This document shows positions 3,441 through 50,738 of a DNA stretch of 64,000 nucleotides, one piece after another. The notes beneath the pieces are model-generated. The model did not search any database. It saw only the letters and a list, made by a program, of their open reading frames with translations, and was not told where the DNA came from. The position numbers and the translations under genes are program-made. The stretch covers positions 7,665,253 to 7,729,252 of the forward strand of contig JAJEKV010000017.1 in the NCBI GenBank assembly GCA_021234155.1. The letters are read 5' to 3'. The DNA comes from Isoetes taiwanensis (lineage: Eukaryota; Streptophyta; Lycopodiopsida; Isoetales; Isoetaceae). Numbering within the stretch: the first letter of the stretch is position 1; each line of letters starts with the position of its first letter.

Positions 3441-4700
3441 TTGATCAGAAAGAAACTCCAGATGTGCTGAACTGTCCTAACCTTCTGTACCAAGAATGAA
3501 GTGTTTTAAAAAGGTCCCAACATGTTGCATGTTCTCTAACATGATCAGGCAACGTGCATTTACTTCATGCGGCAAGGAAGTTCATACAAAAACAACAGAC
3601 CTATTACTGACATATAGCAGAATGGAATTATTGTAGACAAACCTATTAAAGGCATAAAACAGGTTGGAATTAATGTAGACAGACCGATTAAGGCATATAA
3701 CAAAGGATTAATTATAGATAGACCTATTGAACGCATAAAACAGTTCATGGTAAAGATCACTGCAATTGAAGATGTGACCGATCAAACTCATGCAACTCAA
3801 ACTCATGCAACAGAAATTTCAGAAGCATATAACAATTCATGGAACAGAACAATGCAATCGAAGGTAAGTGATCTATCCACGAAATGATGCAGAAGAATAC
3901 TACTGTCCCAACAACAAGAACAATGCAACAGTAGTCTGGAATAAGAATGCAAATACCCTATTCAGGCATGCAACAATGCGAGAAACAGATTTCGAACAGT
4001 AAATTTGTATATGCAAATCAAATCATGTAGTGGACATCGATTCTTGCCTGTATTGGCCACTTATATGTTGATCAGATGCAAAATATTGTAGAGCACCAGC
4101 AGCCGCCTCCCTTGCGCCTCTGCAGAAATCTCCCGAGCGCCTGAGCTAGTAATTCACTGTGAAATTGCTTGGAATGAGTTGCTTGGGCGGGGAAATTTGA
4201 TTTGGCTTGGGCGGGGCGGGGAAATTTGATTTCGAAATTCAAATCAATGTCCTGTTATTAGCGCCATAATTAGAAGGACACTTACTGTCGCAGTCATCGT
4301 ACATTAAGTTCAAGGCACATTCGGACGACCGTACGCCTTGGTTCGTCAAACTTTTTAAAAACAAGCAGCAAATTTCCTACAATTCTCAAATCAGCCTGCT
4401 AATCACAAAAGTTAGCCTACAATTTCCTACAATCTTAATGGGTACCAGAAAATTTCCTGCAGCATATGTTTTAGCCGGAAATCAAAATTAATTTTCATTA
4501 ATTGCACACCAATATAGAAAAATCAGATACAGTGGACATCATTCTAAATACTCAATACTCATCATTTTAAATACTTTAAGACAACTTTAAGACAAAAGGA
4601 TTCAACATTGTTGATCAGGTTAAGTCTTCATCATTATCATCAGTGTCCTTGTTTTCTTCAATTGTGCGAGTTCGTTTTGAACTTCGAAGCTCGAAATAAA
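3441..4700. other. Noncoding region with 42-bp tandem repeat
   Basis: No gene recognised. 3599-3760 holds four imperfect copies of a unit beginning ACCTATT, at 3599, 3641, 3683 and 3722 (spacing 42, 42 and 39). A duplicated CTTGGGCGGGG / GGGAAATTTGATTT block lies at 4186-4235. The region separates the element 1 promoter side from the inserted hAT element, whose exact left end I could not place. Confidence 0.5.
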
Positions 4701-6970: not shown

Positions 6971-7055
6971 AATTTAAAAAAAATGCTCTAAAACTGATTG
7001 CATTCAGCATTTTACATCTTAAAAAATAAAAAATAAAACACACACACATATAAAG

Positions 7056-8680: not shown

Positions 8681-8698
8681 AGGCTCTTTTGTTTTGAG

Positions 8699-11600: not shown

Positions 11601-12304
11601 AGTGGCTCTGATGCAAAGGAAATGTAGCGTTTCCTTGGAGTATGACGACAAAGGTCTCAGAGGTTTTGAGATCGTTCTTGAGACCTTGAGAAAATGACAA
11701 GGCCAAACTGTGAAGCAGAAGAAGAGGAACAGAAAGAAGTCCCTGATGCAGGAGATGTGCCAAACATCAAAATAACTCAATCGACCGATCTGAGTAACAT
11801 GGAAACAATCCTGGACCAGTTAGATCAGAAAGGTTTTGAAGAGAGGCTACAGGGAGACACCTGGCTCGCTAGAGAAGACGGAAAAAGGACTTCTGGCGCA
11901 CTTGATAAGACATTTGAAAAGCTCGAGTCTTGAACCGAAATTTGAAATGGCAATGCCATTAATAACTGGTATGATCAATAAACAATCATCCCAGTTTGAA
12001 TACGTGGGTACCTCTGAATCCGACAGTCAGTTTGAAGACCCAGAAAATATAGAAGGAAGCAAGAGAAGGAAATTACTAGATAATCCTGAATTCGCTAGTG
12101 AGCTACGGGGGGGATTGTTGGATACCACGGTTAACGTAGGCGTGTCAGGATATCGCCAATGCAATGGAAGTAGAAATTCCTTCGGTTACAGGATATTTGG
12201 AAATGAATCTCTCACAAGCCCTTGCCTTAGGTAAGGCACATGCAGATAGAATGGCCAAGGATCTTGGCATTATTCCAGATTCTGTGAAAGAGACTCAAGA
12301 TTAG
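8699..12304 (+). pseudogene. ParB-like / beta-class amino-methyltransferase gene, degenerate (element 1)
   Basis: Plus-strand coding pieces in changing frames. 8699-9460 is an N-terminal part of unknown fold (frame change near 8935). About 9805-9894 ends at a GT donor and aligns by eye with the ParB-like part of the 44.4-kb gene; 10215-10305 has ALVVLHGDQRTPAVSSAW, resembling the ParB box II. 10761-11073 leads to a degenerate motif IV (DFDQYG, about 11060). 11290-11697 has AVLDFFSAGIASRVAL, matching the position and shape of the FxGxGT motif I, preceded by a motif-X-like stretch. An acidic C-terminal tail (11694-12304) ends ...SVKETQD-stop. The order motif IV, target recognition, X, I is that of beta-class N4-cytosine/N6-adenine methyltransferases. 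Catalytic motifs are poor (DQYG for DPPY, FSAGIA for FxGxGT), so it is likely inactive. Identification rests mostly on similarity to the better copy at 43.5-47.6 kb. Confidence 0.6.
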
Positions 12305-27902: not shown

Positions 27903-30900
27903 CTATACTTTGAATCTGTTTTTACAACAGGAACTGGAACATGTAGTTTTAGGTTTTGGACCATTCATCTCCATTCCAACTCCCTGAGAATCTATCATGT
28001 TAGCGTGATCATGGCATTTGACAGCTTTCGCACCGTGCTCAAACTGATCTTTCTGATGCCCGTGGCATTTGACAGGATGTTGAACTTTCGCACCATGCTC
28101 AACATGATCCTTCTGATGCCCAAATCTGTTTTTACAACAGGAATTAGAACATGTATTTTTAGCCTTTTGACTGTTTAAAACTGTAGCAGGCAAATCCACC
28201 TCCAATTCAGTTCCCTGAGTATCTACTTCTACTATGTTGACATGATCATGACATTTGACAGGATGTTGAACTTTCATACAATGCTCAACATTATCTTTCT
28301 GATGGCCAAATCTACTTTTACAACAGGGACTGGAGCATGTACTTCTATTCTTTTGAGCATTCAAAACCGTAGTAGGTAAATCCAGCTCCATCACAGCTTC
28401 CTGAGTATCGACCATGTTAGCATGATCATAGCATTTGACAGAATGTTGAACTTTCACACAATCTTTCTGCCCTTCTTGGTTCTCTCCGTTATGCCCCTTC
28501 ACATGATTATGTCTATGGTCATCACATTGGTGCTCAGCCTGATTTTCATAAGTAGCATGATTATTGTGATTTCCATGCTTATGACCATCGTGATTCCCAT
28601 CATGACCACCACACTGCGAATGGTCATGCTTACGCTTGTGACAGTCATGGGACTGGCAATGACTTGAGCTACAATTCTTTTGGTGTCTTCTTCGTAAAAG
28701 CAACATGCTATTAAAGGTGACAGCAATACATGTGCCAACATCTGCAAGAACTGCTGCCCATAGAGAAGCATATCCCACAGCCGCAAGCACTATAATGATA
28801 ATTTTTGTAATCAACGACAATGATACATTTTGAATGATTTTAGCACGGCACCTTCGGCCGAGACGAATTGCTTCAGCAACTTTTCTAAGGTCGTTTGTCA
28901 TCAAAGCAACATCTGCAGTTTCCATTGCAACAGCAGAACCAGCAACTCCCATGGCAATGCCTACATCTGCTGCTGCCAAAGCTGGTGCATCATTTATTCC
29001 ATCCCCTATCATTCCTGTAGATCCATCTGCCTTCAACTCATGAATAATTCTAACTTTATCCTCCGGTAGCAGTTCGGCATTAAAATCAAGCCCACCAAGC
29101 TTTAAAAAGACCAAAGAATTATCAGTAACTAAGAAAAGCAAATCAAAATCTAACTAATAACGTACCTTCATTTGCAAAATGGATGCTGCAGTAATATTAT
29201 CGCCTGTCAGAATAACTGGCTTGACGCTCATATCCTATATGTCAATATTAAAGTGAGAACGCAGCAATACATAGGATGAGAAGGAAAATATAAAATATGA
29301 TTAAAAACCTTTAAAGACTGCACTGCTTCAAGTGCACCTTCTCGAAGCTGATCAGCAATTGCAAAAACTCCTACATTCTTCCCGTTAATTCCCACCCATC
29401 CAACTGTTGCGCCTAATCTTTTGTGCTCTTCTAATGGTTCTGCAGAATTCCACAGAAGAACTCACAATCTAAGCCCTACCTGTCCTAAGCTTTAATGCAT
29501 TGTACTTAAACGAATTCTACATCTAATGGGGATGCAGTTTCCAGTCTTTGAGGAGATCCAAAGATCATGAACTCTACATCTAATGAGGAGGGCAGTTTCT
29601 CAGTATCCAAAGATCTAATGAGGGGCAGTAAGGAGATCAAAAGATCATGCACTGGAGTCCTACCCCACTTGATTCCCATTTCCATGAACGTCAAAACCAA
29701 GGTATGGACTGACGAGCCATGACATAGGAGCCTGCGGGACCTTTGTGGTATAGGGTAGCAGTCTCGTTTCTGGTTGCCCAATTATTATGAAAACAAATTT
29801 GGTATTAAGAAAACTGCAATTACCTGTATCCCATGAAAGGCGTGATGCCAATCGGGCATTTCCAATCTGAACATGCTGCCCATCGATCATTGCGAGACCC
29901 TTCCAGGATGTATTTCAAACTCTGCAACATCCTGTGATGGCTCTATCCCATTTAAAACGGCATATGAAACTAATGAACTTGCAATAGGATGGTTTGACTT
30001 TATTTCCACGCTTGCTATCCTGGAATAGTGAGATTATAATTTGACATACATGAAGCATGTGCACAACATAGATAGGAAGAAGTAAGTATATGCATACCAA
30101 TATAAAAGTTCTTGTATACTTGAGGTGTTATTGATGGCACTTATGTGTGACACGCTAAAAAGCCCTTCTGTTAATGTTCCAGTCTTGTCCATTGCTATAA
30201 CCTTTAACTTGCCAAGTACTTCAAGGTAACTGCCTCCCTTAACTATCAAGCCCATATGAGCAGCCTGAGCAATTCCACATGTCGTTGTCACTGGTGTGGA
30301 TATAACCAACGCACATGGACAGGCAACAACAAGCAGAACTAAAGCCAAATAGAACCAATGCTTTTGATTATGAACATGTAATGCCAGCGGAACAAACGCG
30401 ATGGCAGCTGCTGTCAAAACAAGAACTGCACAAGAAAGAGTACCAGCGATAAGAACTTCAAGCAGCAAGAATATGACAATTCAAGCATGAAAGTTACCTG
30501 GAGTATAGTACTTTGCAAAACATTCAATTAGTAACTCTGTTGGTGACCGTTTGTTTTGAGCTTCCTCAACTAACCTTATCATCCTTGCAATAGCTGAATC
30601 TTCAGAAAGGGCACTGGTCTTCATGGTCATGAATCCTGTAAACCATTTTAGATAAGAAACCAAACTAAACAATGGTATTCTGTGGTATTTACCAGTTAAG
30701 TTCATGGTTCCCGCCCAAACACGGCTTCCAACCTCCTTGTCTACTGGTTTAGCTTCACCTGTAAGGCTGCTCTCATCAACAGAACACTTTCCTGATATCA
30801 CAAATCCATCAATAGGAATCATCTCTCCAGCCTTTACAGCAATGGAGGTACCCACTTTCACTTCTTCAACACGAACACTCTGCCCACTATCCGCCAGCAC

Positions 30901-33326
30901 AGCATTTTGCGGTGCTAAATTGATCACTGAAGACAATGCAGCCCGTGCCTGACAATGTATGAAATAATCAGATAAGCAGCTAACGTTAACATTGCAATGG
31001 CAACCGATTGCAAACTAGAATGGCCACTAGCTGGAAACATGATGACAGCTTCATATGTTAAGAATACATGTTCCAGAATAACTTTCCATACCTGTCTGTA
31101 TTCTGACAATGATGACATGTTCGGGAATGGACATTGACTTTTCATACTTGTGTCTTGTTCTTCTCAATATACAGAATAAGGATAAGGATGACATGTTTGG
31201 AGGAGGACATGATAGGGTGGCGTCCCATGGACAATACAAATGCGAGATGCTGGTTCATGCAGGCCTACTAAGTCCTTAAAATGCTTATTCTATCTCTACT
31301 TCACTCTATTACCTTTTCATTGGATCTTGATTCCAACCAGTCTGCTAGAGTAAATAAGAACATAATGTTCGGGAAAGGACAATGACTTTTCATACTTGTG
31401 TCTTGTTCTTCTCAATATAGAGAATAAGGATAAGGATGACATGTTGGAGGAGGAGCCTATAGGGTGGCATCCCATGGACAATACAAATGCGAAATGCTGG
31501 TTCATGCAGGCCTACTAAATCCTTAAAAAGCTTATTCTATATCAATCTCTACTTCACTCTATTACCTTCTCACTGGATCTTGATTCCAACCAGTCTGCTA
31601 GAGTAAATAAGAAAACGATTGATGCTGCTTCAAGATAGTCTCCTAAAGCAATTGCACCAGCAACTGCAGATTTAAAACCAAGATAATCAGCAGTGAAGGC
31701 AAGATTAGCACAGACACACACATTCTGATTCACACCTGCAATAAGCATAAGAATGTTTATGTCCAAAATAAGTCGGCGAAGAGAAGCCAAACTCCGCATG
31801 ACGATTGGTGGAATTCCAATTGCCACTGCTCCAATAGCAACCCAGTGAAGGGGATGGTAAAGATACTGGAAAAAAGCTACCACTAGCAAAATCCCGCAAG
31901 AAATAGTCCACGGACTGGGCCATTTATGGCCAGACTTCACCTCTCCACGACGGTGAATACTGGCATCCAATCTGGCTTCATTAAGAGCCTTTACTGACAT
32001 AGCACAAATACAAGGAATGTTAGCTCTTATGTTAATTACAGGAGCCAGGATCAAGTGAGAAACACTAGAACGTACCTAACTGTACATTTGTCACCAGAAG
32101 TCTATCGTGTAGAACAGTCACAGTCCGAGAGGTAATATTGACTGATACTTCTTCCACTCCGGGTAATGGTTCTAATATTTTCTTGACCAACGGAGCCTCT
32201 GCTGGGCAGCAAATTCCCAAAACATTGAGCACAGTTTTTTCAAACCCAGTAGCATTTGCCGGGATGTCTACCTTTACCATCTCTTCCTTGACTGAGGGTT
32301 GTGGAGAAGAGAACAAAGCACAGGCATTTTTAAGCTTCTCCTCAATTTGAATTTCATTGTCAGTAACTGACAAACTCTCATAACCTTTTCGTTTTGGGCT
32401 TTCATAACTGAAAAGGTCAACCAATTTTTTGGGTCTCCTTTTCAGCTTTCCTAACGACTCTCCAACTTTCACGAGACGACCGTGCTCTATAAACTGGGAG
32501 CTGCCATCATCTGTCATAAGTGCATGACTCAATAAGAAAGAACCATCAGTCAATGGAACAAGCCAATCAAAATGGTCCCCATGAGCAATTTGATGATGCC
32601 CACAACCCTCTCTGTGTTCGTGACCATTATCCTGGTTTGAGATTGATGTATAAAGACCTGGTAAATCCCATGGCATTGGCAACGCACAGCATTCTTCCTC
32701 CAGGCACTGGACAGAGGAAAAGAAACGCTCATTTCATCTATTTTCCTATAAGATACAAAAAGGTAATCAAAGTAAAACGGCATTGAACGTTACCTCTTCC
32801 AACAAAATATCCTCTGTAATATCACCATGATGAATGTGTGCATGGATATGTCCAGATTCTTGATGGCAACACCTATCAGACTGTAGATCCCAAGCTCCAC
32901 GATGATGATCGCCAAAACAAAGCTTCGCTTTTTCGTCAATTGTAGAATAGTTTTTTAACGGAGGCACTAGCACGTATTCCACTTTTCCGCCTTCCAAAAC
33001 CAATAGATGCTTCTTTTCTTCGTGATGCTTCTGCAAAAAAGCACAACAAGCTGCTGAAATTAGCCATTCCACAGCACAATAGACTGAATACAACTAAGGA
33101 AACAGAAACACGGCAATTGGCCGTTTTGGATTCGACAATTTTCATTTACTAGTTTTCTTTCAATCTTAAAGCCGGATCTAAGCAATGGCCAGCTTCTTAG
33201 GATCCGAGCACTTCCTAATGAAAATAGAACCGTGAAATCGATGCCAAGTTAATCACGCATCTTCACCTGATGGGATGGCGATCCACAAAGTGTAGCCATT
33301 AAATGTGACGGGGACATCTTTGCCAT
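27903..33326 (-). CDS. HMA: P1B-2 heavy-metal (Zn/Cd) transporting ATPase, HMA2/3/4-like; one frameshift
   Basis: Twelve exons with GT-AG introns: 33326-33267, 33030-32794, 32706-32076, 31993-31736, 31663-31566, 30948-30693, 30635-30498, 30425-30098, 30019-29824, 29439-29309, 29234-29166, 29099-27903 (about 1,199 residues). Such pumps export Zn2+/Cd2+ across plasma or vacuolar membranes. Motifs: HMA domain with GICCPAE (about 262), SSLTGEAKP, CPCALVIS (TM6, about 593), DKTGTLTEG phosphorylation site (about 640), SNHPIA, GDGINDAPAL (about 827), and TM8 DVGTCIAVTFNS. GICC and CPCAL indicate the Zn/Cd/Pb group. Before the HMA domain is a roughly 250-residue extension with His clusters; after TM8 a 270-residue His/Cys tail has three CCK repeats. 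All exon phases fit except that one base is missing in exon 9 at the conserved PGEG (about 29900), creating a TGA. Exon 10's donor (GTTTTT) is weak. An upstream in-frame Met at 33482 is an alternative start. Confidence 0.92.
31118..31613. repeat. 248-bp tandem duplication in the ATPase gene, copying part of exon 5
   Basis: 31118-31365 and 31366-31613 are tandem copies (about 90% or more by eye) starting TGTTCGGGAA and ending CTAGAGTAAATAAGAA. The second copy contains the 3' half of exon 5 with its donor site. The first therefore holds a duplicated half-exon plus donor (about 31313-31365) inside the intron, with no acceptor of its own. Confidence 0.9.
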
Positions 33327-36980: not shown

Positions 36981-37423
36981 TGAAAGGAATATAATTCAAA
37001 TTCAAACTTCACTTAAACAATTATTATCAATGCACATGTCATACACTTATGCAATGTTAAACTCAATCATTAGAAATAGTTTCGAAACTCAATCATTAGA
37101 AATAGTTTCGTATATTGTCAAGGCAACCTTCGATCAATTCCTGCAAACAGCTCCTTCATCCGTATCCCTTAAGATTCTACTTATACTTCTTATAGGATCA
37201 CCGCTTTGCAGTGACTCAAGAATCGGCCCCTTTGGATTAGCCTGTCGGTGGCTAGATCCATGGTCTCGCAACCACCTGGCCGGTGACACTGTTCACCGAG
37301 CTAGGTCTGTGGGATATTTACATGTAAATAATATACAACCTATGACCATAGTCTATAGGCATATTAATATTCAATGATCCAACACTTACCTTAGGTTAAT
37401 CGATTGTTCTGCCATTTCTATCA
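36981..37423 (-). repeat. 3' LTR of the copia element
   Basis: 443 bp, flanked outside by TCTAC. It contains an internal direct repeat, AAACTCAATCATTAGAAATA, in two adjacent copies (also in the other LTR). Confidence 0.97.
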
Positions 37424-39339
37424 CTCCCCTTTCATTGAATATTCCTGTACAGGTCTGTTGCAGACTTCAGCATATTGTACTTTAATTTTTTCTCTTAACC
37501 TGTTGAATCTTGGTTCTCTAAGAGCTTTAGTCATTATATCTGCTATTTGATCTTCAGTTGACACATAATTCACAGAAATGATTTGCTTATGTACCATCTC
37601 CCTAATAAAATGCTGCTTCATTTCTATGTGCTTTGATCTTTCATGAAGCACAGGATTCTTTGTCATAGCTATTCCACTTGCACTATCAGACCATAATACT
37701 GTTGGTTCATCACTCTTTATTCCAAATTCTTCCATTAACCTTCTTATCCAGATTATCTCCTTAGCTGCCGATGTTATGGCAGAATATTCTGCTTCAGCAC
37801 TTGACAATGCCACAGTGTTTTGTTTCTTACACTTCCAGCTTACTGGATTTTCTCCAATCATTACTACGTATCCAGATGTTGAATGCCTATTGTCAGGGTC
37901 TCCACCCCAGTCTGCATCTGCATAAGCATCAAGCATACAACCTTTATCTCTATAAGTTATTCCATAATCCATTGTCCCCTTTAAATATCTTAATATTCGT
38001 TTAGCTGCTCCCCAATGCGGTCTCCCAGGATTATTATTGTACCTGCTTAGTAAATTTACTGCAAATGCAATGTCTGGCCTTATTGCTGTTGCTATATGCA
38101 GTAAACATCCAATCAGACCCCTATATGGAACTCTTTTCATGTACTGTATTTCTTCCTCTGTATTAGGACACATCCTCTGACTGATCTTATGCCCTGGTAC
38201 CAATAGTGTATTTGCAATATTACATGCTGCCATATTGAATCTTTCTAGCATGCCTTGTATATAATCTGCTTGACTAAGACTTATAACTTTCTCATCTCGA
38301 TTCCTTATGACTTTTATTCCCAAAAACTTCTTCAATTCACCTAAGTCAGTCATCTTAAACCTGGATTTCAGCAGATTTTTACAAGTTTCACATCATTTGA
38401 AAACATTACACAATCATCAACATACAAAGCTATTAGGCAAAACTGCTCACCTTGTTTGAAGATGTACAAGTTGCCATCTCCATTTAATTTCAGAAATCCC
38501 TGCTCCATTAAATGATTGTCCATGCATTTGTACCAAGCCCTGGGTGATTGTTTAAGTCCATAGACCGCTTTCTTTAGCTTCCAAATTCTCCCTTCTTTCT
38601 CTTCAAAACCTTTTGAAGGTTGCATGAATATTTCTTCTTCTAATTCAGCGTTGAGAAATGCAGTACTCACGTCCATGTGATGGATTTCTAGATTCAAAGA
38701 ATTTGCTAGTGTCAACATTATCCTTATGCTTGCCAATTTCACTATTGGTGAATAAGTGTCATTGTAATCTACTCCTTTTTGCTGGGAAAACCCCTGAGCC
38801 ACAAGTCTTGCCTTAAATTTTCTTTGCCCATCAGGTAATTCCTTAATTTTGAACAACCACTTATTTCCTACAATGTTCCTGTTTTCTGGTTTGTTCACAA
38901 CCTCATATGTTTTCGTTCTTATGAATGCTTGCATCTCCTCTGACATTGCCCTTTCCCATTGCTTACTGTTTTCATTTTGTATAGCTTCTTCAAATGTCAG
39001 TGGTACATTATTGTCCAATACTGCCATTAAGGCTGGAGCTATTTCTTCGTCAAGTTTTTCCAATCTTTTACTTTTCCCATCGTCTTCTCTTCCAAGTTCA
39101 TTGATTCTAATACCTTTGTCTTCTAATTCTTTTCTTAACCTTTCAGCCTCTGTCATCCTTTTTCTTTGTCTTGTTGTGCTTCCTTCACCCTGTATTGGTA
39201 TATCTAAATTGTTTGTTCCTCCAATATTCACATTTTCTGTTTTATTTACACAGTTTTCAGACTTATCAAAGTCTTCTTCATCACTGCTGTAATCTATACC
39301 AGATTTAACAATTGCCTCATCAACAAGATTGCGTATTAA
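37421..39339 (-). pseudogene. Copia pol, 3' part: reverse transcriptase and RNase H
   Basis: 39384-38368: a hydrophilic linker, then the RT core with QGFSQQKGVDYNDTYSPIVK, MDVSTAFLNAELEEEI and the catalytic YVDD (about 38400). After a one-base frameshift at about 38370, 38353-37421 continues with MTDLGELKKFLGIKV, the thumb, and RNase H with YADADWGGD, SSAEAEY and HIEMKQHFIRE. It ends in TEDQIADIMTKAL and a stop near the polypurine tract. Residues upstream of 39339 belong to element 2. The frame break makes this copy defective. Confidence 0.95.
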
Positions 39340-39384
39340 ACGGGAGCAAATCATTGAAACGAGAGCAAAAGGAATATTCCTCAA

Positions 39385-39902
39385 AGATTCCTTTTTTTTT
39401 TTACAAAAAAAGGGGTAAAACGAGGTTAAAAAAAAAAAGATGCATGAAATTCTATTTTGACCCCCCCAAATGACTAAATTTTTTTTTTTTTTTTTCTAAG
39501 AATTGACTTTTTAAAGTGTCACTTTTTTAGCAAATAGAATGTTCTTAAAGTATGTTTTAAGAGAGAAACTCTAATTTTAGAGGATAAAATATTTAACAAA
39601 AAATTGAAGTAAGTCTCATGAATCAAATCTGTAGTATTCTCAAAATTTGAAGATAGAATCTTCATATTCACATGCAAAATTCTGATCTTTTTCTAAGACT
39701 TCGATTATGTGCAAAAGTGTGAGGAGTGATGAGAGAGGGATCCAGGGCGTCATCATGTTCATTTTATGCCATCGTCATCACCTTCACTTCTTTCAACATC
39801 CACTTTCGAGGAAGTGCTTGAGTTATCTTCCTTATCACTATCAGCAGACGGTGAAGCATTGCCACCACCTTCTTCATCATCTTCTTCGTAATTACAAGCT
39901 TT
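39385..39902. other. Left subterminal region of element 2
   Basis: Homopolymer A/T runs near 39388-39500, otherwise AT-rich noncoding sequence. No gene seen until the 3' end of the DUF7869-type gene. Confidence 0.45.
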
Positions 39903-42870
39903 TTAAGCAAATTGATAGTCCTCACGGCAGACGATTGTCGATTTCAATTTAAAATCATAGCACAATATAGTCACGTCATTAAGGTTCATTTCGTCCCTAC
40001 AACCCACCTTCTTGAACTTTCTCCCTTTTCCTTGGCTTCTCATTTCTAACTCATATCTACCTTCAAAAGCATTTTCCCGAAAGTGTTGCAAGCCAATGAA
40101 TCTTGAGTTTAGTGACTAAGCCTTCCTCCTTGGCTGTGTCAAGCACTTTTGCTATCCGAATCGGTTGACCTTTGTCATCCTCCTCGGTCGGAAGAGCAAT
40201 TAGCATACCTTTTGGTAATTTACGTGATATTACCTTGAGGCTCATTCCCGCGTCTTGTCCGAGGTACATGACTCGATCCTCCTCGTCTTCTCTGCGCCGG
40301 TGCAAATGTAGCAATTTGCTTGGACCTGCTTTGGTGTTGTTGTTGATGGAAGGTGTCGGGCCATTGAAATGGTTCTTGCAACCGCCTTAGAGCTATATTT
40401 TGTACAACAATTTTACGTTAGAAAAGAAATTACTCCACCACATCCGATCTTCTTCTAAGAAGTACTTAAAGCTGAGGAAATTCCATTTTCAATGGCTTTT
40501 AAGGATGACTCTCACGGGTACTTTTCTTCCTTGGACTCCTTAGGATTTTTGAGAGGAAGTTGCTCAAAGACGTTCTATGAAGGAAGTGTGCGGAATATAT
40601 TTAAGGAAGCGTAATCCCTCCTCGGTGGACTCAGTCCTTAGTTGTGGTATACTTCTTCCCCGTAAGAAGCTTTGGCCATCCTTCGGTAGAACTTGATGTG
40701 ATGTTGAAAGGTGAGATCATTCAACTTATTCACAGGCTTGTTCTCTGTTTGAACGTTGAGAGAAAAAAAAACTCTCTCGAAATCAGCGATCTCTTTAAGA
40801 AGACCGACCAACGGAGTAGGAGTGTAAGAATCTTCAATAATTGAATAAAGCGGGAAGACCTTCTTTCTTCCTTCTAAAAGAGCATGAAAAATCTGCTAAA
40901 CATTTGGTCAATCGATCATGAGTGTGGCCTACAAGTAAGAAACCGAGCTTCACTTTTCTAAAGATCCCTAGCTCCACTAACATGGCACGATCATAAAGAG
41001 TGTTTGATTCTTGTTCTCCCTTGTAGTATTGTCAAGTTGCGGATAAAGCACCGGGTGGTAATTGCTCTTGCTTTCGCCGCGGGGACCTTGTTAAGAATTG
41101 TAATTGTGAGGTTCGGGTCACCATGCAAGTTTGGATACGTCAAAAATACTTTGCACTTTAGACTTCCTTTGAAGACCATAGCTCCTACAAGGTGGACCTT
41201 AACAAAACATTCCTCTGGCACATCTTTAGGAATATTCAAGAAATGTGGTAGAGTTGTTTTTTTTTTTGTCCATTCCATCAATCACAACAGACATGTATTG
41301 CAGTGGACGTTCAAGAGCTTTTTTTCTGTGCTTGGCAAGCTTTCTTCTCTCTGCTGCTTGTTGTTCACGATGTCTGGCAAGGTTCTGTTGCACAATATCT
41401 GTAGAAGAAATCAGGTCAAAGCATTTTCTTTAAAACAAGTGAGAGGTTGGAGAACATGAGCTTACTTCTTTCGACCTCTGTCTTTGCAATTTCTCGTTGA
41501 CTCTTTAATTTTGCACACCTTGAGCAAACAGACATTCTATGTTTTCTAGGAATTTTCACAAGACCGAATTCACTTTTCCACAGTCTGGTGAAGTGTGAGT
41601 AAGAGATGTCTTGAAGAAGAAAGTGCAAGTCTCTTTGTACTCATTAAAACATCCTTTTGGTGATGTTATCGGTTAAAATGATACATGTTGCTTTGTTAGG
41701 TAGCTTCTCACATGTTTCTTTAAAATATTTCTCCATCCATGACACAAGTGACAAGGGCATGCATGGTTACAACTCTTCTCGGTCCACAATGATCATCGAT
41801 TCTTTGGATTTTTGTCCGATCTTTTATGTATTCTAGACATTACGGTGGACCCTAAGCGGTGGACAACCATAAAGCACTTCCGGCAAACTTCTTCCACGGT
41901 TAATGTAGTGCAAGAAGGTGTTGCGGTCTGGTCTTACATGATAAGCTAAGTAGGCATTCTAGTTTGCCAATGTCATTGAACTATAGTTGTCTCTAATCGC
42001 CAGAATTTAGCCATGTTAAATCTGTTGATGCAACCCAATGAGCAACATTTAGTTCTCAAAAGTCTCCTCATTTTGTGTTCATCCATAAGATTTCTTCTTC
42101 TTCTGGGAGCACGCCCTCAAACCAAAATCCACCTTGAATTTCTTTGAAGATTGGCTGGGGAACATGTAGTCTCTTTGTTCCTCGTTGGTGTCTTCATCTT
42201 CTGATGAAACTTCTACTCTGGGGATGACTTCCTCTGTCCTGAGTGGTGTGTTTGTAGAGGAAAACAGACCACGTGAAGTTGTTCCCGGAAAAGGCGGGGT
42301 ACAGTGTTAAATGATGGTGATGGCCCATAAGAGGTTGTGGCATCAGCTGTTCTTGTACCATCTTGAAAAGGAGTTCTTGCAAATATCTCCTTTAGAGCGG
42401 ACTGGAATTCTGCAAATCCATGTGTCACAACCGTTGTGTGAAGAGGAGTGCATGCTGGAGCGTCGTCCTCACAGTCTTCTTGACTTTCTGTGTTCCTTGT
42501 ATGTTTGAGTGAAGGGGCAAAGCTACAAATGGGGGTTAGCTTGTTCTTGAACACCCGTTGTTGTGGAGCTTCAGTAGGTTGTCGGGGATGGAACAAAGGG
42601 TGGTGGCAACATGTCTCCGAATTGGTGGTGATGCTTTGTAAGGAGATGCCAGCATCTTGTCTGAGGACTTGGTGGCGGTTGGAAGGGTGGTGGAAGTCCA
42701 TTACGTCTTTGGACTTCGGTGTGTCTTGAAGCAACAACGATGAAGCGGAGGTAGGAGCCTGAGAATGCCGGTCTTGATGAAATGACGTTGTTCCCAAGCG
42801 TGTCCCTCGAACTAGACGAGCTTGAGACAACAAAAGGTGGTGGAAGCTTGTTCACGAAGCGGTTCGTCAT
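39903..42870 (-). pseudogene. DUF7869-type transposon protein, decayed (element 2)
   Basis: Minus-strand pieces, in order. 42870-42213: a Ser/Pro-rich N-terminal region without recognisable domain. 41628-41416: SHFTRLWKSEFGLVKIP and CSRCAKLKSQREIA, the usual DUF7869 block ahead of the core. 41281-40991: LPHFLNIPK, KVHLVGAMVFKG and HGDPNLTITILNKVP. The core follows, LYPQLDNTTRENKNQTL (about 41035), then, after a one-base shift, GIFRKVKLGFLLVGHTHDR (about 40950). The C-terminal pieces (40314-40063, 40091-39903) include LKIHWLATLSG and YELEMRSQGKGRKFKKVG. The DNC and DID positions of the family core read DNT and are lost after HTHD here. Many frame changes; introns may explain some, but the core shift looks like decay. 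It belongs to a different subfamily from the 141-3374 gene. Confidence 0.8.
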
Positions 42871-43526
42871 CTTAACAACCGCAAAATAGTAAAGAGATTT
42901 GAGAAACTTTTCAGTAGTCGCGAGCTTTTCTTATTCCCTAATACACGCCCGTGTTAGTACAAGTAGAAGTTCCAGTACTAATCAAGTGAAAGTCAAAACA
43001 AAAGCTATTACGGAATACACAGGGGAGTAGGATAGTAAAGCTAAACATATTCCGCTTCACATAGAAAAAGAGCAAGACGAAAATGATATCTTTAAAAGGA
43101 AATTAAAAGCTTTTCGGTTCGTATTCCGGTCTCGAGCTCAAATTCGCTAGCGCCCAGTATATGGATTAAAATATTCAGAGATCAGATCCATCCACATAGA
43201 GAAAAACATGGACCAGGTGAGTAAGAAAGTACAATGTACAATCATTTGTGTGTAATGTTTCTTATTCCGAATACACTTTCGCCCAGTGAAGGAAGGCGAA
43301 AAGTGTATCCGAATACACTTTCGTGTTTTTAGGTTTTAAAAGGTTATTTTTCCATGAGTTTTTAGTAATTTTAGGCGTTTTTCCTCTTTAGAACTTGTTT
43401 AGACACATTTCTTTGTCAAGATTGCGGTCTTTGTTTTGGCATTTTTCTCCTCTTTTGCCCTCTTTTTTTTGCAAGACATTTTGTATTCTGGAATAGTTTT
43501 TTGCCACTGTTTTCTCTAACAAGGTC
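42871..43526. promoter_or_regulatory. Divergent intergenic region of element 2 with palindromes
   Basis: Lies between the two divergent genes, so should hold both promoters. 43264-43311 is an inverted repeat (CGAATACACTTTCGCC / GGCGAAAAGTGTATCCG) around AGTGAAGGAA, followed by a third CGAATACACTTTCG. 43484-43495 is TATTCTGGAATA, one of the element-wide TATTC-N2-GAATA sites. TATA or transcription starts cannot be fixed by eye. Confidence 0.5.
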
Positions 43527-45268
43527 GTGTTTACACACATTTTGCACAGACAAGAAGGCAGCAAGAAACAACAGAAGAGGCCCCTTAAAATCCCACAAAA
43601 ACCGCACCCACAGAGAAGGGTTGAGGAGACAGATGCGCCTGCTATCTACGAAAACTTCCAAACTCAATGGTTTTTTACAAGGGGTACTTCTGGAAAGTAC
43701 AGCACCCTTACTTTCCTACATATGCAGCCAGACCCCGGAAATAAAAGGTATGATGACGGGAATTTGTCCCGCATGGGTACCATCCAGTAGTGGAGTGAAG
43801 TAGGCGGGGAGTCCGGTCCTACAAGGGAGACTGTCTTTTCAGACATCCCAAGGCTTTATTCATGTTGATGAAGCCTATCTTAGAGTGGTGAAAGTAAATC
43901 CTCAGCCTCTTTATAAGTATGTTTCTCACTACCTCAACAAGAGGTCTCTCTGTGCCATCATTAACTACATTCGAAGTACAATGAGCGAAGACTTCCCCTA
44001 CAGCGAGTCATCACAAGGGGAAGAGGATAACCTACAGAGCCCGAGCAGTGCATCATCACAATCTGGGAGTCCATCACAGTCCGAAGAAAAGCCACCGTCA
44101 CCACCACCAAAGAAGCGGCAAAGGCCAAGCATTGCTGCTAAAGAGCCTAAAAAAAAGCAAACGACTTTAATTGCAACAGAAGATGCTCCTGAGGAACCTA
44201 AGAAGAAGAAGGGGAAGGGCAAAGCACCTGGTGTTGCTATTAAAGAAAAAAAAGTTGATAAAACATCTGAGAAAATGGAAGAGATTAACCTGCACAAGTT
44301 TGTGCAAGATGTCATTTATTTGCCAGTCACTTCAATGAAGCCGCCCCAAAGAATGAAGCCGGTGAGAGGCCACTTCAGTTCGAAAGATTTATGCTTTGCC
44401 ACCTAAGGAACCTAAAGGGCGGGATCGGGAGCAATCCAAATGCTCATGTGGCCCCAATAGTTGTCCTTGTTGGCGGGAGCAAAGGCAAAACCCCCCGGAC
44501 TATGACAGCAGAAAAAAACGGACACCTACACTCACTCGTCTTGGGAGGTAATCACGACTTCAAGGCAAGAAGGCAACTTTATAAAGAGAAGAAGAACCCG
44601 AGGTACCTCTCCGTCCTCTGCGCTGTTTACTGTGGTCTTACCGATGAAGAAGCAAAAATCATTGCCAACACCCACAATGCTGACAACGAGTACAAACTAA
44701 AGATGAGCTTCGTCGACAAGATCCGGTTTATGCACAGGGAGTACGTAATTTTTAAGGAAAAGTACGGTGAGGACCTGAAGAAGCCAGCGTTTTCCTTGGA
44801 GCTTAAGGAGGCGTGTGCCATTGAATGCTGCCTGAAATATGACGAGGCCAATAAAAGGCAGTCTCTCATTGGCCACGATAACTGGTTCCAATTAGCTTTT
44901 AGAGATGGCAAGGTAAGCACAAAACGTATTCTAGAATAACAATCCAACTATCTGACGTGAAATCTTCTTGAACAGATTTGGGAACTCCAGGACGAGATCT
45001 TTACAATGTTCGAACGAGGGGAGTTAAAGAGCAAGGGCAAGGAGACAGCCAAGAAAAAATCATCTGACGTGCCCAAAAAAGAAATGACCATTACCGTCTG
45101 GCGAGAAATGCAGGGCTTCTCCGACACAGAGCTTCTGGAGCAACTTCTCCAAAAAGTTGTTGATAAGGAGTTTAGCCTAGAAGAAATGTCAAAGGAATTG
45201 CACAAGTAAGATCTCGACACAAACTTTACTCTTTAGATGTTAGAGTCCCAAAAACATCAGCGTAGATA

Positions 45269-45532
45269 GTGTATTCCAGAATACACATGCCTTCCTTCAC
45301 ATGGGCAATGTGTATTCCGGAATACACATTCTTGTCTCTAGAAAAGCATTGTGTATTCCGGAATACACATTGCTCCTCTGAAGGAAGGAATGCGTATTCC
45401 AGAATACACATGCCTTCTTCTAGAAAAGAATTGTGTATTTCAGAAGACACATTGCTCCTCTGAAGGAAGGCATGTGTATTCTGGAATACGCATTCCTTCC
45501 TTCAGAGAAGCAATGTGTATTCCGGAATACAC
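45269..45532. repeat. Seven 18-bp palindromes at exact 41-bp period
   Basis: GTGTATTCCGGAATACAC or close variants start at 45269, 45310, 45351, 45392, 45433, 45474 and 45515: every step is exactly 41 bp. The 23-bp spacers are related to one another, some inverted (TGAAGGAAGGAAT versus ATTCCTTCCTTCA). The fifth copy is most degenerate (GTGTATTTCAGAAGACAC). The array fills an intron of the methyltransferase-like gene. 41 bp is close to four helical turns, so all sites face the same side of the DNA. Confidence 0.95.
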
Positions 45533-46446
45533 AATGTTTTTCTAGAGACAAGCAATGTGTGTATCCTGTAACAGAACCATTTTCTGCATATTGTTTCGAG
45601 GTAGCATCACCAGTTAACCAGTTTGTATTCCAGAATACAAATAGCTTGACTTTTATTTGTTTTCCTTCTACTTTGCCTTGTTTCTTACTTTTTAACTCAT
45701 TGTTTCCTTAACGTCTTGCAGCCAAAAGAATGTCATAACATGTCAAACATGTTTGATGGAGCAGACTAAACGTCGAGACATGGGAAAGGTCACGGGGAAC
45801 TCTACCCAATAGCCACTTCCGACGCCAGCGCATTGTGCAATATGCACCAAATTTTGAGGGGCTTTGGGTAAGTACTCTCAAAATTCCTCGTCTTTGCACA
45901 AAACGATCTCCCCATTCAGTTGTTGTTATGTTTTTCGGCCGAGGAGCAAAAGAAAAACAAGGACCTTCCCGAGGGCTTTATGCATTTGGTTAGAAACGAC
46001 CGAAGAGAGGTCGTTAGGCGAAAGAAGAAGCTGTTGGAGCGAAACCATCCGACTACGAGAGATTTTGCAAGTTTGATCAAAACAATTTATATTCAATCAT
46101 TCATGGTGATTGCACGAATCTTGTCCCGAATCGGTTAAGCCACGGGGACTTTACTTTGGTTATTCTTGATCTTCCCTACGGGTTTTAAGCTTAAAGACAG
46201 CCAGAATCTGACGACCCGACCCTTCAAATTTTTCTGAGTTTAATGCTTTCATTGATGGAATCAAGCAGATCACAACGGCCAAACATTGGCGTTCAGTTAC
46301 GTTCCATTCGAGCATGCAGTCTGGCTTGGTAGAATCAGCTTTCAAAAACCACTTTGGTTCTCCAGTTCAGGCGGGATATGAAAACCTTGTCTGGTAAGTC
46401 TTATTCCAGAATACAGTTACTTTTCTCTTCGATTGTGTTGCAAAAA

Positions 46447-46765
46447 TACGCGTATTTTTTGAAAAGAATCCATTCCGTACCGTACTTGTACGTACGTACG
46501 TATTTTTAAAAAAATACTCCTGACGTTTTTTTCTTAAATACTACTTGTTTTTCACAAAACAGTAAACTTGCACTTACCAGGAATTGAACCTGGGCCTCCT
46601 AGATAGCAAACTAACATGCTAACCAACTTCCCCTACATCAGTTTTATATTTTATTTCACTATTTTATTCTATTTAAACACTGTTTTTTGATTTTTAAAAA
46701 ATACTCCAAACGTACGTAATGTACGTATGGCTGAAAAAAACGTATTTTTTAAAAAATATGTACAA
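46447..46765. mobile_element. Foldback insertion (~320 bp) with a tRNA-like core, in an intron
   Basis: The left arm (AATACGCGTATTTTTTGAAAA, then CGTACGTACGTATTTTTAAA and AATACTCC) matches in inverse orientation the right arm (GATTTTTAAAAAATACTCC, CGTACGTAATGTACGTATGG, AAAAACGTATTTTTTAAAAA). The interior carries the tRNA-like segment at 46571-46640. It looks like a small nonautonomous insertion in the last intron of the methyltransferase-like gene. Confidence 0.65.
46571..46640 (-). ncRNA. tRNA-like sequence (SINE head or tRNA pseudogene)
   Basis: On the minus strand GTTGGTTAGCATGTTAG resembles a D arm, and CCAGGTTCAATTCCTGG forms a perfect T arm with the B-box consensus GGTTCAATTCC. The anticodon arm pairs only about four bases and the acceptor ends do not pair convincingly. 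It is therefore a SINE-type pol III promoter or a pseudo-tRNA rather than a working tRNA. Confidence 0.5.
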
Positions 46766-47566
46766 TGCGACGCAGATGCAGTGCAGCGTCGGGTTTCAAC
46801 ACCGACGTAGTGTATTCCTAATAGTATTTCACATTTACGGTTTTGAATTGTTTACTTATTTTTGCTAACATCACTTTAAATGTTTCACTAGGTACAAAAC
46901 AAACATCAACTACCATGGTGGAGGACCAAGGTTGCTCAACAAGGTAGAGTACCTTCATGTAGCTTATTGGAGTTTTGATGGGAAGAGGACCATGGAACAC
47001 TTCAACAACACCCTTTGTCAAAACTTTTCAAACGTCCTAGAGTTTCCAAATAGTCTTACGAAAATTGCGGGACCCAAGTGCACAAAGGCGGGATTGTGAA
47101 TCACTACCGTAAACCACAAAAGCTCATCAACCATCTCCTGGACATGTTCTCGCGTCCGGTGAGATTGGAATATGATGCTTTCTCTGGTTCTGGTACTACT
47201 ATCGCATGTGCACTTAAGAAGGGCCGCAAGCGTGTTGCCGTGGATATTGATAAGGATCTTTGTGCATTTTGTGAAGATGAAACCGGCTGCCTTACCTACT
47301 TTACCGGATGAAAATCAAGAGTTAGGGGCCAAGTCTTCATCCGATTATGCTAAACTAACGCCTTCGAGATCTGCCTCCATTCTCAAGCTCACTAGGCAGG
47401 CGAGGCAACCTTTGCAGAGCTTAAAGAAGTAGCTTTAGCTACCATTCCGAGGGACAAGGAGGATACAAAACTTAAGTCTCCAAAGAAAGGAGCAGCCGGC
47501 CTGAAGGACGGCCGTGAGAGGCAGAGAGCAAAAAAGAATGAAGAGGACTATGATGTAGATCTTTGA

Positions 47567-47898
47567 CTACTGCATATTAAAACTATCATTGTTTATTACA
47601 ATGAATCTTCCATAATGATGTACAAAAATTTATTAAAAACATAGTATTTTTTTTTCCTTTCTATTCTGATGCTTTTTTTTTTCATGCTTTCAGTCTCTTC
47701 AAGTCTATGCCTAAATTTCGCTATTTTTATGATTTCTGTTTCATAAGTACGAAGTTATCGCCTAATGATGGCCCAAAATGACATGAAAAAAAATGCGAAC
47801 CCCTAGAAATTCTCAACAACTATCAAAAAAGGCTTATTTTAGAAACATGGTGTTTTTTAAAAGGGAATCTTTGAAACGGGAGTGATGCAACACTCCCG
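47567..47898. other. Right subterminal region of element 2
   Basis: 3' UTR side of the methyltransferase-like gene, AT-rich, ending in the terminal inverted repeat. A local hairpin, AACGGGAGTG / CACTCCCGTT (47874-47900), forms the very end. Confidence 0.6.
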
Positions 47899-47902
47899 TT
47901 AG

Positions 47903-50271
47903 TTTGCAATCGTGTTCATCATCATCTTGGTCTGATTTAACAAATTTAGTCTTCTTCCTGTCTTTATACAATTGTTCTTCAACGAAGACCACATCTCTGC
48001 TTATTATTATCTTCCCTTTTTCTGGTTCAAACAATCTATAAGCCTTTGCCTCTTCATCATACCCAACTAGGAATGCAACTTGTGCCCTATCATCCAATTT
48101 GCTTCTTAACTCCTCTGGTATATGAACATAAGCCATACATCCATAGGTTCTAAACCCTTGATATGATGGTGTTTTGTTTGACCATAACATTTCTGGTATT
48201 TCTCCATTAAGACTAACACTTGGTAATCTATTCTGTCTGTAAATTGCAGACTTCAATGCTTCTTCCCAAAGTTTGTTTGGCAGGCCAGCATGCTTAAGCA
48301 TGGCTCTAACAGCATTTAGACATGTTCTATTCTTCCTTTCAGCTACCCCATTCTCTGCTGGGGAGAATACCTACATGTTAGCTGCCTCCTTATACCTTTT
48401 TCAGTACAAAATGCTTTGAATTTTCTTGAGATATATTCACCTCCTCTGTCAGATCTTAGACATTTTACTTTGTACCCTGTTTCTCTCTCTACTTCAGTGA
48501 CATACTGCTTGAATGCTCTTAAAGCTTCAAATTTCCTTGACAAACAATAACATTTTGCTTTCCTAGTAAAGTCGTCTATAAATGTAATGAAGTACCTTTT
48601 TCCAGTGCTGCTTCTTTTGTTGAGAGGACCACATATGTCAGTGTGAACCAGCTCTAATAGTATCTCTGCTCTTTTGTGTCTTCTAGAAAAAGGAAGTCTT
48701 GTACTCTTACCTATCATGCATCCCCTGCACACAAAGTTATGTTGCTCCTCTTTTATTGCATCAATATACCCCAATTTACTTAATGCTTTTACATTTTTCA
48801 TGTTTGTGTGTCCCAAACGCTCATGCCAGATCTTCAAGGTTGGGACTGATGCAACATTTATCATTGGAATTGTTTCACAAGTACTCATTTCAAAAAGATC
48901 ACCAACTCTTTTTGCCAAAAAACAGATTTTATTATCCTTCACAATTTTGCATGCATGCTTGTCAAATAGTACTTGGTAATCCAAGTCAACTAATTGACTT
49001 ACTGAAATCAGGTTTTTAACAATAGAAGGTACACAAAATACTTTTTCAATCTCTACTGGCTTTCCTTGCAAATCAAACAACTTAAGCATTCCTGCAGTTT
49101 CAACTTCTTTTATTCTTCCATCTCCTTAGCGTATGCTCTTCAAATGTGTCTTCTTATCCTTCCTTGTGAGTAAGTCTGTGGAATCTAAGATTGTTCTTTC
49201 AGCTCCCGAATCTACAACGAAAGATGTTTTAGCATTACATTTCTTGCTCAAGCAATTTGCAAAAACAGTAGTTACCTCTTCCTCGGAGCCTTCTTCTTCT
49301 GATTCTACTACTGCTACATTAGTATGTGCAGCCTTAGAACCCCTGCCCCTACCTCTGCTCATGCTCCAGCTATTTGCTTTGCCTCTGCCCCTGCCCCTAC
49401 CTCTGCCACTATCTTTAGGCGTTGGACATTTTGAAGCCACATGGCCTACACCTCCACATGTAAAACATGTTCTAGTATTCTTTGGGCAGTTAAATTTTAA
49501 GTGCCCAACTTCACCACACCCATAACAGGGTCCAATCTGCCTGCCTTTATCATAACTCCCCTTTCCTTTCTTGACAACAAGCACTTCAGCAGACTCCTCA
49601 TCCTCCTCATTCTCATTTTCAATCATAAGCTTTTGTTCTATTTCAGTTCTAGCAATTTTCTCAGCTTCTTCCCTAGTTTTAGCAATAGTTCTAATAAGTG
49701 TGGCCAATGTCCCATAGTTAATAAACATTTTTGATATTGCTAAGATCTGATGGTTTTCTGACATAGTTACACCAGCTGCCTCCAAGTCTGCACACAATGA
49801 ATCAAACTTGTGGAATAATGTGGTCAAATCCATCTTCTCATCATACTTTAATTTTCTGATTTCCTTTTCCAATACATCAATTTGGGAAGAGCTCTTAGTC
49901 TGATATGTCTTTATCAGATATTTCCAAGCCTCCTTAGGACTCAAATTTCTTAGTTTTAGCATTATGCTAGGAGCAACCTTACACATAATTATGGCTTTGG
50001 CCTGACTTGTTTTCAACTCACCACTTAGCTTTTCACTGCTAGTACTAACCTCTTTAGATTTGCCAGTGGATTCCCCTGACCTGGCTGTTGAAGATTCTCC
50101 AGCTGCAGCACTACTTGCTTCATCAGTAATCTCAGCATTTGGTTCAACAATGCTCCACAGGCCTTCAAATTGCAGCACCTCTTTGATCCTTTCTTTCCAA
50201 ATTTGAAATCCACCAACACCCTGGAATATGTCAATAGAACTCAAGAGTGTTGCACCAAAACGTGTAGACAT
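47903..50271 (-). pseudogene. Copia gag, protease and integrase
   Basis: The start is the ATG at 50271 (MSTRFGATLL). Gag: UBN2-like segment (TYQTKSSSQIDVLEKEIRKL), then two CCHC zinc knuckles, CYGCGEVGHLKFNC and CFTCGGVGHVASKC, and an Arg/Gly-rich stretch. Protease active site: FVVDSGAERTIL. An in-frame TAA at 49126-49128 interrupts the frame. Integrase: HERLGHTN and CRGCMIGK (HHCC), LVHTDICGPL, FIDDFTRKAKCY, LRSDRGGEY. A two-base insertion near 48350 breaks the frame just before the catalytic Glu block. The frame continues to 47903, where element 2 is inserted. With two breaks here and one in the 3' part, the copy is non-functional despite near-identical LTRs. Confidence 0.95.
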
Positions 50272-50282
50272 CGTGCAATCCT

Positions 50283-50294
50283 GCTCTGATACCA
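50283..50294 (-). other. Copia primer-binding site
   Basis: TGGTATCAGAGC on the minus strand, one base inside the 5' LTR; complementary to the 3' end of plant initiator tRNA-Met. Confidence 0.9.
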
Positions 50295-50295
50295 A

Positions 50296-50738
50296 TGAAA
50301 GGAATATAATTCAAATTCAAGCTTCACTTAAACAATTATTATCAATGCACATGTCATACACTTATGCAATGTTAAACTCAATCATTAGAAATAGTTTCGA
50401 AACTCAATCATTAGAAATAGTTTCGTATATTGTCAAGGCAACCTTCGATCAATTCCTGCAAACAGCTCCTTCATCCGTATCCCTTAAGATTCTACTTATA
50501 CTTCTTATAGGATCACCGCTTTGCAGTGACCCAAGAATCGGCCCCTTTGGATTAGCCTGTCGGTGGCTAGATCCATGGTCTCGCAACCACCTGGCCGGTG
50601 ACACTGTTCACCGAGCTAGGTCTGTGGGATATTTACATGTAAATAATATACAACCTATGACCATAGTCTATAGGCACATTAATATTCAATGATCCAACAC
50701 TTACCTTAGGTTAATCGATTGTTCTGCCATTTCTATCA
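50296..50738 (-). repeat. 5' LTR of the copia element
   Basis: 443 bp, three substitutions relative to the 3' LTR (AAGCTTCAC/AAACTTCAC, GACCCAAG/GACTCAAG, GGCACATT/GGCATATT). TCTAC follows at 50739-50743. Confidence 0.97.

Follow-up and report, generated by a model that had tools for sequence, protein, structure and literature searches.

Several eukaryotic transposable elements are known to carry genes for enzymes that modify DNA. In fungal DNA transposons, including Kyakuja, Dileera, Zisupton and others, a TET/JBP gene, whose product alters DNA methylation, lies beside the transposase gene (PMC12730594). DIRS retrotransposons encode Dam-like adenine methyltransferases, and retrotransposons of dinoflagellates and charophytes encode cytosine methyltransferases; the same source also mentions DNA transposons with a DNA methyltransferase (DNMT) in marine viruses (PMC5890265). 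The bdelloid rotifer enzyme N4CMT is a bacterial-type amino-methyltransferase that is fused to a chromodomain and silences transposons (PMC8885841). In plants, self-regulating proteins are encoded by VANDAL/MuDR elements, which PMC12730594 mentions. These proteins act sequence-specifically on the epigenetic state of their own transposons. Here we describe element 2, which lies in a 64,000-nucleotide stretch of the Isoetes taiwanensis genome (the window; contig JAJEKV010000017.1, positions 7,665,253 to 7,729,252). Its sequence indicates a cut-and-paste DNA transposon with two genes, present here as a decayed copy, in which a DUF7869 gene is paired with a divergently oriented methyltransferase gene.

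The element 2 family shares with the fungal TET/JBP transposons the presence of a methylation-altering enzyme gene beside that of the transposase. However, TET/JBP enzymes act on 5-methylcytosine (5mC), whereas the enzyme of the element 2 family is a predicted writer of amino-methylation. Moreover, two KDZ members described in PMC12730594 have target duplications of 7 or 8 bp, whereas the element 2 family features 4-bp duplications and a DUF7869 transposase gene, which sets element 2 apart from KDZ elements. Like the element 2 family, the DIRS and cytosine-methyltransferase elements are eukaryotic transposable elements that encode a DNA methyltransferase. In contrast, they are retrotransposons with other methyltransferase types, and the accessible part of PMC5890265 mentions neither a ParB-like domain nor a palindrome array. 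N4CMT resembles the element 2 enzyme as a bacterial-type amino-methyltransferase in a eukaryote, the latter being carried by a transposon rather than directed against transposons. Bacterial CcrM-type enzymes have the same domain and motif order, although the Azospirillum enzyme used for comparison carries DPPY and a C-terminal RAMA domain, and the element 2 family has D[LI]PYGF together with an N-terminal domain of unrelated type. The action of VANDAL/MuDR proteins on their own elements is similar to the role proposed below. Among the matches listed from the open-licence literature, none concerned a DNA transposon of plants that encodes an amino-methyltransferase. Transposons carrying DNA-modifying enzymes are a known kind. 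Within it, the element 2 family stands apart, as DNA transposons of plants that retain an amino-methyltransferase of bacterial type under strong selection, together with candidate recognition sites (the arrays).

Ends and coding content of element 2

The ends of element 2 were set by alignment with 20 genomic copies. A 301-bp methyltransferase probe had given 928 first-look candidates and 40 scored matches, of which the 20 next in line were fetched. Element 2 is a single inverted-repeat DNA transposon of 8,595 bp with CATC duplicated on either side (Table 1). Both ends are kept in 15 of the 21 elements (the 20 copies and element 2), with identical 4-bp flanks in 14 of these 15; in the remaining six, the left end is not recognisable within the fetched stretch. 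The two-ended elements show 86.5–94.6% pairwise identity. Terminal repeats and a duplication of fixed length, the hallmarks of inverted-repeat DNA transposons, are therefore found in many copies.

The ends proposed in the first-pass annotation (39340–47898) are 18 bp too far inward on each side. A related reading, with TTA as a 3-bp duplication and ends at 39339 and 47898, also left the Copia frame of the insertion site open. It was rejected because most copies align end to end with element 2 and are conserved for 17 bp (left) and 18 bp (right) beyond these positions. Removal of the element as now delimited, together with one CATC, yields a single 467-residue Copia frame spanning the junction. 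The insertion host is a Copia retrotransposon, as evidenced by a gag of the copia type and an incomplete match to RVT_2. The genes of element 2 carry several stops and frameshifts, and the frames of the surrounding Copia (37400–50400) are open (394, 323, 260 and 467 residues). Element 2 may have been already broken when it moved, carried by the transposase of another copy; alternatively, the assembly may be noisy.

The plus-strand gene is spliced, is divergent from the DUF7869 gene and ends in a beta-class amino-methyltransferase. Its C-terminal piece matches PF01555 (2.1e-9), and CcrM (6pbd), which aligns across the domain at 1.1e-4, is the nearest sequence match with a solved structure. Motif IV (DLPYGF) lies upstream of motif I (FSGSGTT), the order that, with a PF01555 match, defines the beta class. 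A simple pattern search retrieved motif IV in 16 of the 20 other copies, always as IADLPYGF. Element 2 also matches a better methyltransferase profile at 2.3e-28, a score that was set aside because copies of this family went into the profile. Taken alone, the methyltransferase part is similar to enzymes of phages (1185 records) and plasmids (2791 records) at E <= 0.01, and a search for whole composite proteins gave 5636 candidates, none at E <= 0.001. A viral origin was considered and rejected, as no relative was found in viral contigs and the N-terminal region has no phage match at E <= 10. The insert in the intron after the ...ENLVW exon contains ACGTACGT-rich stretches, and part of it looks tRNA-like by eye with no ARAGORN call; neither Rfam (at gathering scores) nor tRNA scanning gave a match anywhere in the window.

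The pairing of a DUF7869 gene with a divergent, spliced beta-class methyltransferase gene in one element, as initially described, is borne out by PF25273, PF01555, CcrM and the motif order. The ParB label attached to the N-terminal region did not fare as well. In the Pfam check suggested by the first-pass annotation, PF01555 was recovered and ParBc gave no match. The N-terminal region matches the ParB-like phrog_723 at E 0.14 only, and DUF6551 appears weakly in 7 of 17 family members (best E 0.025). A sequence search of the PDB with this region returned nothing at E <= 1. The top Foldseek match is ParB (6sdk, E 0.12), obtained with a poor model of the N-terminal exon folded from five sequences (predicted local distance difference test, pLDDT, 43). 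A profile of fern/Ginkgo-type relatives matches positions 44289–44936 at 1.1e-44.

On the minus strand, pieces of the DUF7869 gene match PF25273 at 1.7e-8 and 2.9e-4, the latter under the model cut-off. The predicted fold of an intact relative has an RNase H-like core. D270, D351 and D393, which lie on the strands and helix expected for DDE/D enzymes, are present in 31 of 32 aligned DUF7869 rows, and decayed Isoetes copies retain D in 16/25, 14/21 and 13/20 aligned cells at the three positions, respectively. A PDB sequence search with the transposase returned nothing at E <= 1, and no paper on DUF7869 was found in the open-licence literature. Judging from the modelled fold, DUF7869 is a probable DDE/D transposase that would cut and join DNA. 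A family of unknown function is hence placed among probable DDE/D transposases.

Table 1 Features of element 2 (window coordinates).
Feature	Position	Strand	Basis or remark
Whole element 2	39322..47916		Ends common to aligned copies; excision restores 467-aa Copia frame
Left target-site duplication, CATC	39318..39321		Same as right one
Right target-site duplication, CATC	47917..47920		Same as left one
Left terminal inverted repeat, AACAAGATTGCGTATTAAACGGGAG	39322..39346	+	Aligned copies; variant AACAAAGTTGCG... also occurs
Right terminal inverted repeat, altered in element 2	47892..47916	-	AACACGATTGCAAATTAAACGGGAG in 20 other copies
DUF7869 gene, decayed, best kept ~40770-41607	40066..41900	-	Pfam pieces; alignment to fern-like DUF7869 genes; fold of relative
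Two remnant palindromes between the genes (element positions 3683, 4161)	43005..43496		Palindrome scan
N-terminal part: low-complexity start, then ParB-like region (GGNHDFKARRQL)	43981..44936	+	Profile match 44289-44936; 34-38% identity to five fern-like loci
Remainder of ParB-like region, ending ...SKELHK at GT intron boundary	44961..45206	+	Profile 1e-13; boundary shared with fern-like L003
Palindromes of ~20 bp (TGTGTATTCCGGAATACACA type) arrayed every 41 bp in methyltransferase gene intron	45266..45552		Repeat reading
Methyltransferase coding, motif IV VILDLPYGF; stop directly after in element 2	46018..46185	+	Sequence reading
Methyltransferase coding, ending ...ENLVW at GT intron boundary	46212..46394	+	Matching ...EGLTW boundary in L003, L008
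Private ~370-bp insert in intron after ...ENLVW exon	46435..46804		Absent from aligned copies spanning the site
Methyltransferase C-terminal coding, motif I FSGSGTTIACALKKGRK	46892..47308	+	PF01555 2.1e-9; CcrM; fern/Ginkgo-type profile 2.1e-9 and 1.5e-3 for two pieces

Relatives in Isoetes and in fern-like loci

By alignment coordinates, 16 of the 20 fetched copies extend across the core of DUF7869 as well as the methyltransferase exons. Of the others, L023 is incomplete, the DUF7869 side is missing from the fetched stretch of L025 and L036, and L037 has a deletion between the two. When the Isoetes genome was searched with the N-terminal region, there were 2,621 first-look candidates, 150 of which were scored and yielded 175 matches. 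Ten further loci were picked for diversity from this list, and DUF7869 lies on the opposite strand in nine of them, being incomplete in some. The longest open frames of the measured Isoetes copies range from 134 to 325 residues on the DUF7869 side and from 137 to 511 residues on the methyltransferase side.

A DUF7869 alignment, used alone against prokaryote genome contigs, retrieved nine loci (L001–L009) with long and open DUF7869 genes. Eight of these (L002–L009) are found in one cyanobacterial bin labelled Trichormus, and L001 in another bin. The loci appear to be plant contigs contaminating the bins, since the methyltransferase gene has introns and some loci adjoin retroelement-like sequence. 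The source is fern-like, and probably Azolla, given the label of the bin and that Trichormus azollae is the symbiont of this fern. A divergent homologue of the element 2 methyltransferase gene is present in all five informative loci (L003, L005, L006, L008 and L009; best E 5e-43); the other four extend for about 600 bp or less upstream of DUF7869. Inverted repeats related to those of element 2 were found in the three loci examined (34 bp, 94% in L009; 37 bp, 81% in L003; 33 bp, 79% in L008), with ends such as AACACGATTGCG in L008, and also AACATGTTTGCG. The 4-bp flanks of L008 match (AACA/AACA). Element 2 and the fern-like copies have two intron boundaries in common, one after ELHK/ELSK and the other after LVW/LTW.

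A profile built from N-terminal exons of the fern-like loci identified 105 proteins, all at E <= 2.5e-14, in a search whose scoring was confined to the 7,993 candidates with the most shared words. These include a Ceratopteris richardii protein and a 758-residue protein labelled Gb_10123, which matches PF01555 at 7.8e-19; the label is of the Ginkgo style, and a relative is probably present in Ginkgo.

Nei-Gojobori estimates of the ratio of nonsynonymous to synonymous substitutions (dN/dS) were obtained among fern-like copies, and the values are rough because dS is large or saturated. In the N-terminal region dN/dS is 0.036 in the one computable pair of ten, the others being dS-saturated with dN of 0.066–0.103. 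Ratios are 0.035–0.092 for the motif-IV exon (5/10 pairs computable), 0.021 for the motif-I exon (1/3) and 0.091–0.160 for DUF7869 (25/28). Such values point to purifying selection on both genes in fern-like copies and strongly contradict a neutral cargo.

The co-occurrence with DUF7869 inside related inverted repeats, which the first-pass annotation had set in advance as a test, recurs in both Isoetes and fern-like loci. Its claim of a real plant DNA transposon family with a standing methyltransferase gene is upheld by the 5/5 fern-like loci, by the 16/20 and 9/10 Isoetes loci and by the signs of purifying selection. The family is real and abundant, and probably old. Its composition is secure, the presence of both DUF7869 and the methyltransferase being in our judgement nearly certain, and the mechanism discussed below is offered as a hypothesis.

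Palindrome arrays and the proposed role of the methyltransferase

Every one of the 15 two-ended elements has 5 to 17 palindromes of the type GTATTCCGGAATAC (two mismatches or fewer). In contrast, none was detected in the flanks of these elements, or in the 54.7 kb of the window outside element 2. The arrays of this family sit both between the two genes and in the methyltransferase gene intron. Other subfamilies feature other palindromes at the inter-gene site, namely CGGTATAAATTTATACCG types in L040–L042 and TGTCTATGCGCGCATAGGCA in L045. Types AGTCGATGC-GCATCGACT are found between the genes of fern-like loci. The inter-gene regions of 11 of 15 loci (4/5 fern-like loci with both genes, 7/10 diverse Isoetes loci) were compared with 20 base shuffles each. 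Palindromes of any type number 4–16 per locus vs shuffle means of 0.3–0.8 (maximum 3), and the shuffles are exceeded in all 11 regions. Ten of the 11 have a dominant repeated type; L006 has two. In the latter locus (L006:2362-3840) the two types, AGTCGATGCGCCGCATCGACT and GGTCGATACCAGGTATCGACC, are interleaved in one array. These subfamily-specific inter-gene arrays are a new observation here.

The palindromes are the best mechanistic hint available, and suggest that a DNA-binding protein which the element encodes may recognise a site specific to it. Palindromes of similar length (~20 bp) are bound by ParB proteins. In the mechanism that we propose, DUF7869 would cut and join DNA as a DDE/D transposase. 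The ParB-like N-terminal domain would recognise the palindromes and bring the methyltransferase to the element's own DNA, on which the enzyme would write N6-methyladenine (6mA) or N4-methylcytosine (4mC). The mark would govern the divergent promoter, the ends or both, so that the element stays expressible or its transposition is timed. VANDAL/MuDR self-regulating proteins, which act against silencing, are not known to have a methyltransferase domain. As a whole, a two-gene transposon with sequence-directed self-marking is the best explanation, with a probability of roughly 0.6. Taken separately, self-marking through the palindromes falls slightly short of an even chance. A stricter form, in which the palindrome array differs from subfamily to subfamily and is paired with a corresponding ParB-like reader joined to the amino-methyltransferase, so that each element family has 6mA or 4mC placed on its own kind only, is more doubtful.

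Several observations weigh against this reading. Both genes are broken in element 2 itself. L031, alone among the two-ended elements, has unlike 4-bp flanks, and so do L003 and L009 among the fern-like loci. The Isoetes copies were chosen by methyltransferase or N-terminal matches, which leaves DUF7869 elements without a methyltransferase outside the count, and in L047 DUF7869 was not found within the stretch read. The dS values are near or beyond saturation. Motif IV is D[LI]PYGF in Isoetes and fern-like copies, in contrast with the usual catalytic consensus [DNS]PP[YFW]; the acidic residue, the second proline and the aromatic residue are kept, and L or I takes the place of the first proline. 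For comparison, DPP[FY] is found in two enzymes of phages and one of bacteria. The ParB identity lies under every threshold and is only hinted at. L003 has just two palindromes of its main type, and palindromes also occur outside the inter-gene regions (7 in 4.3 kb in L038, 8 in 4.8 kb in L043 and 10 in 14.4 kb in L003). They are fewest in L006 (1 in 8.1 kb).

In addition, the palindromes could be bound by the transposase or a host factor instead of the methyltransferase protein, and the methyltransferase would then act more broadly, for example on host chromatin or competing elements. The array of element 2 is mostly intronic and the ParB identity is unproven, as this alternative would have it. 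Proteins of other transposons bind repeats near the ends of their own elements, a precedent that we count in its favour. However, numerous arrays are placed in the inter-gene region instead of close to the ends, and vary with the subfamily, as expected of a self-recognition site; we consider this alternative unlikely, even if it fares best among the rivals. Somewhat less probable still is that the methyltransferase times movement rather than counteracting silencing, methylation of the ends or promoter leaving only hemimethylated, freshly replicated DNA competent. Dam methylation acts in this way on some bacterial insertion elements. A divergent promoter region with operator-like palindromes, and a nearest solved enzyme of the CcrM type, would both suit a regulatory role of this sort, although the palindromes of the arrays lie away from the terminal repeats.

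That the methyltransferase is a functionless passenger, captured once, is very improbable. Neither element 2 nor the measured Isoetes copies have full-length open genes, as a passenger would allow. In contrast, dN/dS is low over very large dS in the fern-like copies, an internal stop occurs in 23 of roughly 150 listed Isoetes N-terminal places, and the gene, its orientation and two intron boundaries are kept across sources. A chance adjacency, whether of two insertions unrelated to each other or of a host gene and a neighbouring transposon, can be dismissed, as nothing was found in its favour and both genes are enclosed by common ends and target duplications in many copies and in a second source.

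If the stricter, subfamily-specific form of self-marking is correct, a recognition module like those of plasmid partition would have been turned into an epigenetic writer, and the family would supply lycophytes, ferns and perhaps Ginkgo with non-5mC methylation. The existence of 6mA in land plants is disputed (PMC12695648). The element family offers a concrete candidate enzyme, candidate targets (the arrays) and plants in which to address this question.

Element 1 and other features of the window

The window contains a second DUF7869 element, element 1, which had been described as repeating the plan of element 2. The DUF7869 gene is clear (Pfam 8e-41) and belongs to a separate subfamily (29–43% identity to its relatives), and the methyltransferase half of the description found no support, the best profile match being at E 1.8. 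The plus-strand pieces tested matched no methyltransferase or ParB model in Pfam, and are not among the best 15 matches listed for two family profiles. A 149-residue piece ranks first outside element 2 against the better methyltransferase profile, yet at E 1.8, and its shuffles score as well in 29–340 of 1000 tries, depending on which of four relatives is compared. As a second methyltransferase element, element 1 was rejected, being unsupported by Pfam, the fern-like loci, the Ginkgo-type protein and the profiles. A few GATCGCG palindromes lie near 8.4–8.5 and 12.5 kb, and palindromes overall have a density close to background (1.2–1.5 vs 1.0–1.2 per kb). For now, element 1 counts as a DUF7869 element in which no methyltransferase has been recognised, and speaks neither for nor against the family claim.

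The second gene of element 1 spans 8681–12301 on the plus strand, and its piece 11248–11694 features VLDFFSAG, which resembles a decayed S-adenosylmethionine (SAM) motif, although the piece reaches just E 1.8 with the family profile. Between this gene and the DUF7869 gene of element 1, a zinc-finger gene (zf-C17orf113, 1e-12; 4600–6973, minus strand) looks hAT-like by eye and is probably a nested transposon. Heavy-metal-associated and haloacid-dehalogenase hydrolase pieces at 27903–32682 (minus strand) possibly represent a metal-transporting ATPase gene or pseudogene.

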